The position numbers were made by a program, and so were the translations under genes. From Phycisphaerae bacterium (GTDB taxonomy: Bacteria > Planctomycetota > Phycisphaerae > SM23-33): a stretch of DNA of 37,851 nt. Positions 33,216 to 37,595 of this stretch are shown here, piece after piece (within the stretch, counting starts at the first letter, position 1; every line of letters starts with the position of its first letter). The stretch is from NCBI GenBank assembly GCA_016929245.1, contig JAFGJE010000045.1, forward strand, positions 1 to 37,851, given 5' to 3'. The notes below the pieces were generated by a model that was not told the origin of the DNA, ran no database searches, and was given only the letters and a program-made list of their open reading frames with translations.

Positions 33216-33998
33216 TTATTTTCGACAAAGATACTGAAATGCCCTCTGGAAAAAGATTCCCCCGTCCGCGCGGGGGATGTTCCGGCGGGTCCATTGGGGG
33301 TGATGCGTGATCTCGATGAACCGTTCGGGGTGCGGCATGAGGCCCATCACGCGCCCTGTCGGGTCGCAAATCCCCGCGATATCGTCCACGCTGCCGTTGG
33401 GATTGGCGAACCCGCCGACGTGCCCCGATTCGTCGCAGTAGCGAAGAGCAACCTGGTCGGCGGATTGGAGTTTCGTCAGGATCGATTCGTCGCGCGGGAC
33501 GAATTTCCCCTCACCGTGGGCGATGGGCAAGGCGATGACTTCCCCCCTGGGCAGAAAGACGCACTTGTCGCTGTCGCAGCTGAGGTGCACCCAGCGGTCG
33601 ACGAATTGCCCGCAATCGTTCCAGGCGAGGGTTGCGTCGGCGCCGGCTGACGACGGTTCGACGTGTCCCCAGGGCAGCAGGCCTGACTTGATGAGCACCT
33701 GGAAACCGTTGCAGATGCCCAGGATGAGTTTGCCGTCCTCGACGAATTGGTTCAGCGGTTCGGCGAGCCGGTGGAGCATCTGGTTGGCGAGAATCTTCCC
33801 CGCCGCCACGTCGTCACCGTAGCTGAATCCGCCGGGCACGACCATGAACTGGAAATCCCCCAGCATCCCGGGATTCTCCATCAGCCGATTGACATGCACC
33901 CGATCCGCGGAAAACCCCGCCTGCTGAAGGGCGTACGCGGTCTCCACGTCACAATTCGTCCCCGCCGCTCGTAATACCAAAGCTCTGATGTTCATCAT
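33216..33998 (-). CDS. purQ: phosphoribosylformylglycinamidine synthase, glutaminase subunit
   Basis: The 260-aa class I glutamine amidotransferase supplies ammonia to PurL in purine synthesis step 4. It has nucleophile Cys96 in GICNGFQ and the catalytic pair His223 and Glu225 in PHPERF. VVPGGFSYGDD (53-63) and AAGTNCD at the start are PurQ signatures. Start ATG 33998 or the adjacent ATG 33995 both fit. It is on the same strand and downstream of purL, but a 0.5-kb inserted segment carrying 34058-34471 lies between them. Confidence 0.96.
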   Translation of the reverse strand: MMNIRALVLRAAGTNCDVETAYALQQAGFSADRVHVNRLMENPGMLGDFQFMVVPGGFSYGDDVAAGKILANQMLHRLAEPLNQFVEDGKLILGICNGFQVLIKSGLLPWGHVEPSSAGADATLAWNDCGQFVDRWVHLSCDSDKCVFLPRGEVIALPIAHGEGKFVPRDESILTKLQSADQVALRYCDESGHVGGFANPNGSVDDIAGICDPTGRVMGLMPHPERFIEITHHPQWTRRNIPRADGGIFFQRAFQYLCRK

Positions 33999-34015
33999 CC
34001 GTCACTTTCGTCTGA

Positions 34016-34540
34016 ATCACAAAGCTCACGAAGATCACAGAAGTTCACAAAGAAGATTTAATTCACGATTCTTCGTAGGCCGTCTTTCAGCATATTCGTA
34101 TTGAAATTAATCAGAAAACCAAGTCGTAATTTTGTGCTTTTCAGATAACTTACCAACTGCCGTTCATGAATGGGCAAAATCATATCAATCGCTTTGAGTT
34201 CCACAACAACCTGAGAACCCACAACAAGATCAAGTCGTTGACCGGGCAATTGCAAATCTTTGTATGTAACAATGATGGGAACCTGCGTCTGTGTGGAAAT
34301 CTTTCGGAGATGCAGTTCGTGTACCAATGCTCTTTCGTAAATGCTTTCCAACAATCCTGGTCCGAGATGTCGATGCACTTCGATGGCTGCATCGACGACC
34401 TCTTTCCCGATCCGTTCCGTTTCATCCGAAATCGGAGTAAATTTATTTCCTATAAAATCACCATTTGCCATTCGTTTTTCCCCACATAAAACGCTTTTTC
34501 TTCTTCGTGATCTTCGTGAACTTTGTGCTCTTCGTGATTT
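34016..34540. mobile_element. candidate compact element: one nuclease-fold gene in inverted 9-mer arrays
   Basis: The left arm at 34016-34056 is a run of degenerate units near TTCACGAAG (CTCACGAAG, ATCACAGAAG, TTCACAAAG). The right arm at 34494-34540 is the same array inverted (CTTCGTGATCTTCGTGAAC and onward). Both arms point inward with AAGAAG. Between them is one gene, 34058-34471. The element fills the purL-purQ junction: the right arm ends 1 nt from the purL stop, and the left arm begins 17 nt from the purQ start. It has no recognised transposase. The mobile reading is inference from structure and position. Confidence 0.6.
34058..34471 (-). CDS. GxxExxY protein (PD-(D/E)xK nuclease-fold, PDDEXK_3)
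   Basis: The 137-aa protein carries the namesake motif G39-LL-E42-SI-Y45. It also has a PD-(D/E)xK-like set: Asp81 in RLDLVV and E91-L-K93 in VVVELKAI, with an upstream acidic Glu42. The family is widespread with no settled biochemical role, and the residues for a nuclease fold are intact here. The length is typical. It is clearly more AT-rich than purL and purQ. It is the only gene inside the inverted 9-mer arrays and is read in the same direction as purL and purQ, so it may be carried on their transcript. A DNA- or RNA-cutting role in the element's own spread is a hypothesis. Confidence 0.88.
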   Translation of the reverse strand: MANGDFIGNKFTPISDETERIGKEVVDAAIEVHRHLGPGLLESIYERALVHELHLRKISTQTQVPIIVTYKDLQLPGQRLDLVVGSQVVVELKAIDMILPIHERQLVSYLKSTKLRLGFLINFNTNMLKDGLRRIVN

Positions 34541-34541
34541 C

Positions 34542-37409
34542 TCACCAATCGAACGTCCCCTGCCAAGCGGATTTGGCGTCGTTGATGGTTACGTCGATAT
34601 TTTTGTCGATCACGATCCTGCCCGCATCCGTCACCTTGCCGATCGGCGCACAAGCAAGCCCGACAAAGCATTTTTCAAACTCCGAGGCCTTTTCGGGTTC
34701 CACTTCCACCAGGAACCGTCCCGCCGATTCGCCGAAGAGTTTCGCGGCCAAACCATCCGCGGCTGTCGGCATGTTCGTAAGCGAAATCTCCACGCCCAGT
34801 CCGCCGCTAAAGGCAAGTTCCGCGGCTGCCACCGCCAGGCCTCCTTCCGAGAGGTCGTGACAGGTTCGCACGAGTTTTCCGGCGATCGCCTTCTGCAACG
34901 CCCGCATCGTTTTGAGATTGGCAGCCAGGTCCACCGGCGGCACGTCGTTGCCGGTTTCGATGCCTTCGACGCGCAAGTAATGGCTGCCGCCGAGTTCCGG
35001 GCGGGTTTCGCCCAGCAGATACAGCAGGTTGCCCGCCTTCTTCGCGTCGCCGGTCACGCAGCACGTCACGTCCGGAACGACGCTGATCGCCGAGACTAAC
35101 AGCGTGTAGGGAATCGCGATGGTCTTTCCGTCGTTGGTCTGGAATTCGTTGTTCAGGCTGTCCTTTCCGCTGACGAACGGCACGGAGTACGCAAGGGCCG
35201 CGTCCCGACAGGCGAGGGCGGCCCGCACCAGCGCGCCCATGCGGTCGGGCTTGTTGCAGTTGCCCCAGCAGAAATTGTCGAGAATCGCGGTGCGCTCCAG
35301 ATCCCCGCCGACGGCGACCACGTTTCGCAGCGCTTCATCCACGGCGTGCAGGGCGCTTTGGTACGGATCGAGATCGCCCAGGTGCGGGTTCATGCCGCAC
35401 GCCAGCGCCACCCCGCGATTCGACCCCAGCACCGGGCGGGATACCGCCCCGTCACCAGGCCCGTCTTCGGCGGCGCCGACTAATGGTTTAATCACGCTGC
35501 CGCCCTGCACCTCGTGGTCGTACTGGCGGATGATCCATTCCTTGCTCGCGACGTTGGGGGCCGCGAGTATCTTTAATAATGTATCGTTGTAGTTGTCCTT
35601 CACGGGGGGAACGGGGGAAGCCTTCGGATCAACGTCCCACGTCGCGTCCTTCGTCGGACGCGGTAGGCCGTCGTGGAGAAATTCCATGTCCAATTCGCCG
35701 ACGTTCGCGTCATTGTAATACAGTTTCAGCGCCGGCTTGCCGTTCCGCGAATATCCGAAGGTTCCGATGACGGTTGCTTCCACGTTTTCGTCGGCGAAGA
35801 TTTTTAAAATCCGCTCCACGTTCTCCCGCGGCACCGCCAGGGTCATGCGTTCCTGGGCCTCGGAAATCCAGATTTCCGAATAGCTCAGTCCCGCGTATTT
35901 CAGCGGAACGCGGCCGAGGTGAACCTCCGCGCCGATCTTCTCGCCCATCTCGCCGACGGAGCTGGATAATCCGCCCGCGCCGCAGTCGGTGATGCAGGAG
36001 AACAGACCTTCGTCGCGGGCTTGCAGGATCGTATCGAGAACTTTCTTTTCGGTGATCGCGTTACCGATCTGCACGGCGTGGGAGAATTCCGTTTCGTGTT
36101 CGTGGGTCAGTTCGCCGCTGGAGAACGTCGCGCCGTGGATGCCGTCGCGCCCCGTCCGTCCGCCGACGCAGACGATCGCGTCGCCGGGATTGGGCCTTTG
36201 CTTCGTGCATTTACTTTTGGGCATGACGGCGGCAGTCCCGCAGAACACCAGCGGATTGCCCACGTAGCGGTCGTCGAAGTAGACGGCCCCGTTGACCGTC
36301 GGGATGCCCATGCGGTTGCCGTAGTCCCGCACGCCCGACACCACGCCGCGCATCACGCGCTTGGGATGCAGAGCGCCGGCCGGCACGTCGGATAAGTCCA
36401 TCGTCGTGTCGCCGAAGCAGAACACGTCGGTGTTGGCGAAGGGTTTCGCGCCCAGGCCCGTGCCCATCGGGTCGCGGACGACCCCGCCGATGCCTGTCGA
36501 AGCCCCGCCGTAGGGTTCGATCGCCGACGGGTGATTGTGCGTTTCGACCTTGAATCCGACGGCCCAGTCGTCGTCGAATTCGATCACGCCCGCGTTGTCC
36601 TCGAACACGTTCAAGCACCACGGTTTGTTCAATTCGCGCGTCGCGCTGAAGATCGTGCTTTTAATCAGGTTCGGAATTTCCTCGACGACCTTGCCGTGGC
36701 GGTCTTTCATGCGCACGTCGCTGCGGAACGTCTTATGGCCGCAGTGTTCGGACCACGTCTGGGCGATCATTTCCAGTTCCACGTCGCGCGGCTCCCTGCC
36801 TTGGGCGCGGTAATGATCCTGAATCGCTTTCATCTCCGTAAGGTTCAGGAACAAGTCGCCGTCCTTGCTTAACTTCTCCAAACCGGCGTCGTCCAGATCG
36901 CGGATGGGCACCTCGACGACGTTGAGTTCATACGAATGCCCTTGCGATTCGGGAGGGGTGTGGGCCTGGAAGTAGAAATCCTCGATCACGGCGTTGGCGA
37001 GGAGTTTCGTGGCGATGGTCTGACGCTCGTTGTCGGACACGTCACCGACGAGTTCATACCGCCGGCCGGTGCAGACCGCCTGTACCTTGACGCCCATATC
37101 GCGGATCGCGTTTTCCGCGGAGGCGGCCACGGGGTCCATCACGCCCGGCTGGAGGTGCACTTCGATCACGCGGGTTCGGTCGTCGGCCGACGCGCCGACG
37201 CGAAATTCCTCCGTCACCGGATCGGCGAGCAGTTCCCGCGCGACGCGACGCACGTCGGCGTCGGACAACTCGCCGGCGAGGAAGAACAATCTCGCGGAGC
37301 GAACCGCCGAAACGGATTCAATGCCCAACTCGCGGATGTGCGAGAAAACGCCCTCGGCGTGGGGATCGCCGAACGTTGATTTTGTCCATACCTCGACGCG
37401 ATGCATCAT
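34542..37409 (-). CDS. purL: phosphoribosylformylglycinamidine synthase, PurS-PurS-PurL fusion
   Basis: From ATG 37409 (GAGGA upstream) the 955-aa enzyme converts formylglycinamide ribonucleotide to its amidine using ATP and ammonia from PurQ. Residues about 1-75 and 80-150 are two PurS-like domains ([18 protein letters not shown], then [19 protein letters not shown]). The PurL linker and synthetase follow, with [27 protein letters not shown] and [10 protein letters not shown]. The late [12 protein letters not shown] and [11 protein letters not shown] belong to the second synthetase half. Fused PurS domains are separate small subunits in Bacillus. The stop lies 1 nt from the inserted element, so the C-terminus is intact. 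Confidence 0.96.
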
Positions 37410-37461
37410 AATCGTATCCTCGTGACGGAAACCCGCCTCTATCGGCCGGCAAGAAAGGGGC

Positions 37462-37490
37462 ATTGTAGCGAGAGGCGTCAAAGGGGACAA
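37462..37490 (-). promoter_or_regulatory. purL promoter
   Basis: On the minus strand TTGTCC (37485-37490) and TACAAT (37462-37467) are separated by 17 bp. Transcription would start near 37455 with a leader of about 46 nt. Confidence 0.5.
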
Positions 37491-37595
37491 AGAAAAACGC
37501 GACGGAGTATCTTCAGGTGTGCGACAACAAATCCTGGCCACGGATCGTCACCGCTCAAATAGGCCGCGAGATCACAAGACTTGTTTCGCGGAGAA

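Follow-up and report, generated by a model that had tools for sequence, protein, structure and literature searches.

Genes of the GxxExxY (PDDEXK_3) family are mostly bounded by inverted arrays of short tandem repeats in many phyla, and this association is real and general. We studied it from a segment at the purL-purQ junction of a Phycisphaerae bacterium, within a 37,851-nt stretch of DNA (the window) that belongs to a 4.16 Mb draft genome. On balance, we favour for this segment a REPIN/RAYT-like selfish or domesticated system of putative mobility, in which a nuclease resembling Cas4 and lambda exonuclease takes the place of the tyrosine transposase. The association is apparently undescribed, a novelty that is provisional, as the search covered the open literature; there GxxExxY was barely named, in one paper in a passage unrelated to arrays, and PDDEXK_3 was not found.

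Table 1. Features at the purL-purQ junction, with positions in the window.
Feature	Position	Strand	Remarks
purQ	33216..33998	-	intact; downstream neighbour
Inverted array, purQ side	34015..34056	-	downstream of the GxxExxY gene; about 4 degenerate 9-mer units, CACRRAG class
GxxExxY (PDDEXK_3) gene	34058..34471	-	137 aa; profile matches TIGR04256, PF13366
Inverted array, purL side	34499..34540	-	upstream of the GxxExxY gene; 4 units AATCACGAAGAGCACAAAGTTCACGAAGATCACGAAG
purL	34542..37541 (stop at 34542)	-	intact; upstream neighbour; start codon not refined

The two arms of the segment (Table 1) are 95% complementary between 34018-34038 and 34507-34527, the longer alignment giving AATCACGAAGAGCACAAAGTTCACGAAGATCACGAAGAAGA for the arm next to purL and AATCACAAAGCTCACGAAGATCACAGAAGTTCACAAAGAAGA for the arm next to purQ. 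The RNA hairpin that the arrays close is stable (z -4.7), and the DNA hairpins reach z values of -7 to -13. Together with the profile matches of the protein, these arms bear out the sequence-only reading, which had proposed a GxxExxY gene enclosed by inverted degenerate 9-mer arrays. Its description of the segment as harmless to both neighbours and foreign in composition was also correct, since the two flanking ORFs are intact and the GC content is 41% in the segment versus 61-62% in purL and purQ. GxxExxY is the sole ORF of the segment; neither a DDE nor any other known transposase was found there in the ORF list or by a Pfam search, and no known RNA family of Rfam matched it.

The protein matched TIGR04256 (GxxExxY) with 3.5e-39 and 133.8 bits for a cut-off of 35, and PF13366 (PDDEXK_3) with 9e-39 and 132.9 bits for a cut-off of 22, both matches above the curated cut-offs, which makes it a member of the GxxExxY / PDDEXK_3 family. 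Ten residues are invariant among 50 relatives (H33, G39, E42, Y45, D81, E91, K93, Q105, F123 and R134), among them the PD-(D/E)XK catalytic residues D81, E91 and K93, and Q105 and the nearly invariant Y109 resemble the QhxxY motif of the RecB family. When an AlphaFold model of the protein (pLDDT 92) was compared by Foldseek, the best fold match was Cas4 SSO0001 (probability 0.99), followed by LHK-Exo, lambda exonuclease and MGME1, with weak E-values (5e-3 at best) but in agreement with one another. No relative of solved structure was found by sequence search. A known defence gene was also considered as a candidate and rejected, the sole match being a weak one to AbiEii (E 0.015). In one paper, a gene beside a CRISPR reverse transcriptase was named GxxExxY by the paper's pipeline and cas4 by another program (PMC8934634).

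For the analysis of other loci, flanks were aligned against the reverse complement and a score of at least 15 was taken as a pass, the highest shuffled score being 14. Inverted arrays were detected in this way at the ends of 98 of the 125 GxxExxY loci, so that the arrays anticipated beside GxxExxY genes elsewhere are indeed present. These loci were drawn from many phyla as well as from the window's family, a set of 30 genomes, all drafts, which, to judge by the identical arms of L058 and L171 and of L059 and L146, appears to include planctomycete/Phycisphaerae assemblies. With simple, uncorrected flanks, 94 of the 125 GxxExxY loci passed, as did 23 of the 31 loci of the four-helix-bundle (IVP) family described below, versus 5 of the 99 control ORFs (Fisher p = 5e-29 for GxxExxY and 3e-14 for IVP, on loci that are non-independent and an IVP sample drawn from one family). 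The window's genome has three further GxxExxY genes, one at trpB-trpA, one with DUF58-like and BatA-like neighbours and one flanked by a pair of ABC genes (mlaF/mlaE-like); all three occupy gene junctions and have inverted arrays on both sides, with a word of its own for each gene (CTGAGATA, CACAGAGNN and GACGAATAA); thus, all four GxxExxY genes of this genome are flanked by arrays, each with a different word. Phage or plasmid cargo was rejected, as GxxExxY was found in 0 phage records, in none of IMG/VR and in 8 of 72,556 plasmids. The record NZ_OY725952.1 of Bacteroides finegoldii (L245), labelled as a plasmid, carries a GxxExxY gene amid thrA and radA, chromosomal-looking neighbours, and may be a chromosomal fragment.

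A similar arrangement was found around a gene family unrelated to GxxExxY. Two four-helix-bundle genes (TIGR02436) of the window's genome, L005 and L006 (G000:C30 and G000:C220), lie inside inverted 7-mer arrays of the words GGGGACT and GCGGATT. L006 corresponds to PF05635 (23S_rRNA_IVP), and both loci contain an IVP/S23 ORF, which is not the case at purL-purQ. The L005 gene has an in-frame TAG. The GCGGATT word was present in 7 of the 30 family genomes, and in 4 of those 7 an IVP gene lies at such arms, as judged by arm sequence in G000 (the window's genome) and G045 and by coordinates in G002 and G041. The array period, called by simple self-match, was 7 or 14 in 21 of the 23 IVP arrays versus 2 of the 94 GxxExxY arrays (p = 8e-19, on the same non-independent loci), the latter having a period of 9 in 47 cases and of 8 in 28. 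Between inverted CACAAAG arrays, L328:1501-1931 holds a small membrane-like ORF of 123 aa with no clear Pfam match, which is possibly a third cargo or a host gene caught between two arms.

Away from these genes, the genomes contain hairpins of 60-100 bp made of their own words. The three-unit pattern CRCNRAGNNCRCNRAGNNCRCNRAG had 64 matches in the window's genome versus 0 for the reversed pattern, so the array is not due to chance, and it was present in 23 of the 30 family genomes, with up to 367 matches (0-2 for the reversed control) and a median of 33 in genomes with a GxxExxY gene versus 0.5 in those without (p = 0.002). Most of the matches in the window's genome correspond to about 20 gene-less hairpins of 62-101 bp, in two subfamilies, one of which matches the purL-purQ arms. 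The gene-less hairpins fold strongly as single-stranded DNA, and the adjacent pairs that were counted had, without exception, the polarity plus-then-minus (14/14 for the sister species G001 and all pairs for the window's genome). Their arms are non-palindromic tandem 9-mers, and REP-type GTAG/CGTC ends are absent from the arms listed for the window's genome. Arm likeness was 0.81 within versus 0.78 between hairpins in the window's genome (p = 0.03), and 0.605 versus 0.646 in G001 (not significant), in such a way that arms are hardly more alike within than between hairpins; the word rather than base pairing therefore seems to be conserved, and arm pairing as the main constraint is unsupported. 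No target-site duplication was seen by eye at the flanks of the genome's own hairpins, and there is no close enough empty site, the nearest genome being around 81% identical in PurQ. Nested hairpins with different words at L020:15460-15565 and L332:1501-1736 suggest sequential insertions, and in L332 the non-repeat sequence adjoining the arrays is likewise inverted.

The word of the arrays follows the protein clade. On the family tree of 50 proteins there is a single change between two word classes, CRCNRAG and GATT-type, versus 14.7 changes expected in shuffles, with 0 of 500 as low, the classes having been defined after the arms were seen, with 5 rows unassigned and an SH-aLRT of 78 on the dividing branch. 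This agreement partly reflects common descent, because gene and arms are linked, but the host is not its cause, since several genomes contain both classes. Arrays of AGGATTACAGGGATT were found only in G009 and G023, both with the corresponding protein clade, and in G045, a congener of G009, and those of CACGAATT in 6 of the 7 genomes in which the mlaEF protein clade is present versus 3 of the 23 others (p = 9e-4). As for CACGGATT, 40 copies were present in 681 kb of G001 versus 1 in 329 kb of the window's genome, and the composite form of the G001 copies (L353, L373 and others) matches the arm of that species' own mlaEF GxxExxY gene. The number of CACRRAG arrays tracks that of GxxExxY genes (rho 0.62), with a partial r of 0.45 when Y1 transposases, four-helix-bundle genes and genome size are controlled for. 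Arrays with no detected gene were found in G045, G005 and G020, and genes with few matching arrays in G003 and G014.

The gene is not universal at the purL-purQ junction, as only 3 of the 15 resolved relatives have it, with an in-frame stop in that of G012, and the remaining junctions consist of 3 with gene-less inverted arrays, each of a different word, 6 clean ones (17-49 nt) and 3 others. The "clean" junctions of G022 (L036) and G020 (L040) retain one lone unit (CACGAAG and CTTCGTG), possibly an excision footprint or a target word. The purL-purQ protein clade includes members at other sites, G012 and G016 each having an additional one elsewhere, and a pair of near-copies is located at unrelated sites of G009, one of them adjoining tRNA-like sequence, their homology stopping at the arm ends. 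The trpB-trpA genes of seven genomes form one clade (SH-aLRT 97); at this junction G011 has arms of the same type with no gene between them, G005 has one arm, and several other genomes are clean, supporting that most gene copies are old, inherited vertically and subject to decay. An alignment of 85 kb between the two species of the window's genus contains 20 indels of at least 40 bp, and at least 11 of them involve arrays as read from the sequences, in that either one of the species lacks the array or the two have different words at the site; the flanks of sister species are too diverged to define exact ends. Several non-array hairpin repeat families, such as GTGCCGTGGTTCGCGAAGC... and CCCAGGGC...GCCCTGGG, also differ between the window's genome and G001, and Y1 transposases may drive them. 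The idea of a self-contained mobile unit, put forward by the sequence-only reading, thus stands in part: it survived the two refutation checks that it had proposed, and near-copies with matching ends at unrelated sites, presence or absence between species and dispersed gene-less copies agree with it, whereas the gene copies are old residents, as in the trpB-trpA clade, and the abundant units are gene-less hairpins.

Among known systems, REPIN-RAYT (PMC2817692, PMC8049555) is similar in several respects. RAYT genes are flanked by cognate inverted REPs (PMC2817692), and here too a single gene lies between copies of its own repeat in inverted orientation, a population of gene-less hairpins exists, repeat abundance tracks the cognate gene, and the gene is mostly vertical and rare on plasmids. 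The differences are that the enzyme is of the PD-(D/E)XK type and not a Y1 tyrosine transposase, Y1 genes being located elsewhere, that the ends consist of words of 7-9 bp arrayed in tandem instead of GTAG/CGTC palindromes, and that there are several paralogs per genome. The system, whose activity is putative, thus appears to work like REPIN/RAYT yet falls outside it by its enzyme and by the form of its repeats. Unlike in classical IS/MITE elements, no DDE or other known transposase is present in the full-length copy. The 23S rRNA intervening sequences (PF05635; PMC4990558) share the single small ORF between complementary ends, and the IVP-family genes of the window's genome have the same array layout, with period 7, but the purL-purQ locus lies in a protein operon and not in a 23S rRNA helix, its gene has an unrelated nuclease fold, and its ends are repeat arrays. 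Foldback/Galileo-type transposons also have internally repetitive terminal inverted repeats, but they are eukaryotic, far larger and use a P-type transposase (PMC3573991, PMC4168063), and no P/MuDR-type transposase is present at purL-purQ. Intergenic heptamer repeats are known in Xanthomonas, with 70-75 convergent inverted pairs per genome, and in Nostoc (PMC4692102); they are alike as intergenic arrays of short units, and words of the GGGGACT type also occur in the IVP element of the window's genome, but a cognate gene was not reported there (PMC4692102).

Other explanations have to be weighed against this system. The arrays could be operators or mRNA hairpins under domesticated regulation, with GxxExxY as a sequence-specific regulator or processing nuclease and a spread that is ancient and now inactive, as would fit the persistence of gene copies at the trpB-trpA, DUF58-BatA and mlaE-mlaF junctions, the stability of the RNA and DNA hairpins, and the near absence of GxxExxY from plasmids and phages. 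However, dominant words largely differ between sister species, at high copy number, hairpin presence varies at orthologous gaps, and near-copies exist at unrelated sites within one genome; with this turnover of words and hairpins regulation alone is insufficient, and we consider it unlikely. It seems distinctly unlikely that Y1 transposases of the IS200/RAYT type, or some other host enzyme, mobilise the hairpins in trans, with GxxExxY as a passenger or limiter. Y1_Tnp is indeed present in 27 of the 30 family genomes, with 2 matches in that of the window, and array and Y1 counts are correlated (rho 0.44), but the correlation is lost when GxxExxY and genome size are controlled for (r 0.17, not significant), while that with GxxExxY stays. 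Moreover, G004, G007, G014 and G040 have 5-11 Y1 matches and 0 CACRRAG arrays, the word tracks the GxxExxY clade, and the arms listed for the window's genome have no REP-type ends.

The similar likeness of arms within and between hairpins, where the word and not the pairing is kept, and the absence of an Rfam match make improbable an element that acts at the RNA level, in the manner of 23S rRNA intervening sequences, with the ORF in the loop, a hairpin trimmed from the transcript by RNase III, a harmless insertion and mobility by another route; this is despite the fact that the second family with the same layout is 23S_rRNA_IVP (PF05635) and that known intervening sequences have complementary ends and are excised by RNase III (PMC4990558). 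Local slippage and hairpin template switching could build arrays in place, with genes there by chance, and the variable unit number of tandem arrays and the single arms at some junctions (G005, G045) would be expected from it. Nevertheless, composite words common to dozens of unrelated sites, arrays at only 5% of control genes and the coupling of word and protein require copying and specificity, in such a way that this origin is hardly credible.

In the REPIN/RAYT-like system that we favour, two parts would act together, and the purL-purQ segment would be the one that carries the gene (the autonomous type). Its PD-(D/E)XK protein, of the Cas4/RecB/lambda-exonuclease type, would recognise a 9-bp word of its own, repeated in tandem at the two ends as mirror images. 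The protein would bind this word and cut DNA, the substrates probably being intermediates of the arrays in hairpin, cruciform or flap form, and would thereby help to copy hairpins into new gaps. The short gene-less hairpins with the same word would be non-autonomous copies across intergenic gaps, whereas the gene copies would persist mostly by descent at tolerant operon junctions, like RAYT genes.

More tentatively, these loci may represent an unrecognised class of bacterial mobile or domesticated elements, spread over many phyla, in which a small non-transposase protein (GxxExxY or the 23S-IVP four-helix bundle) sustains the inverted arrays cognate to it, the protein family determining the unit length (8-9 or 7 bp) while the word drifts. 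That the unit length is fixed for each protein family and the word is free offers a strong and unusual hint at the way in which the arrays are produced or read. No role is known for the widespread GxxExxY and 23S-IVP/four-helix-bundle families, and there is no accepted origin for short-unit repeats of intergenic regions, the heptamers of Xanthomonas and Nostoc among them; were every one of these genes the partner of one word, the two puzzles would merge into one testable system. If true, many short intergenic tandem-repeat hairpins of bacteria would be explained, and REPIN/RAYT-type biology would have more than one evolutionary origin, with enzymes that are unrelated.
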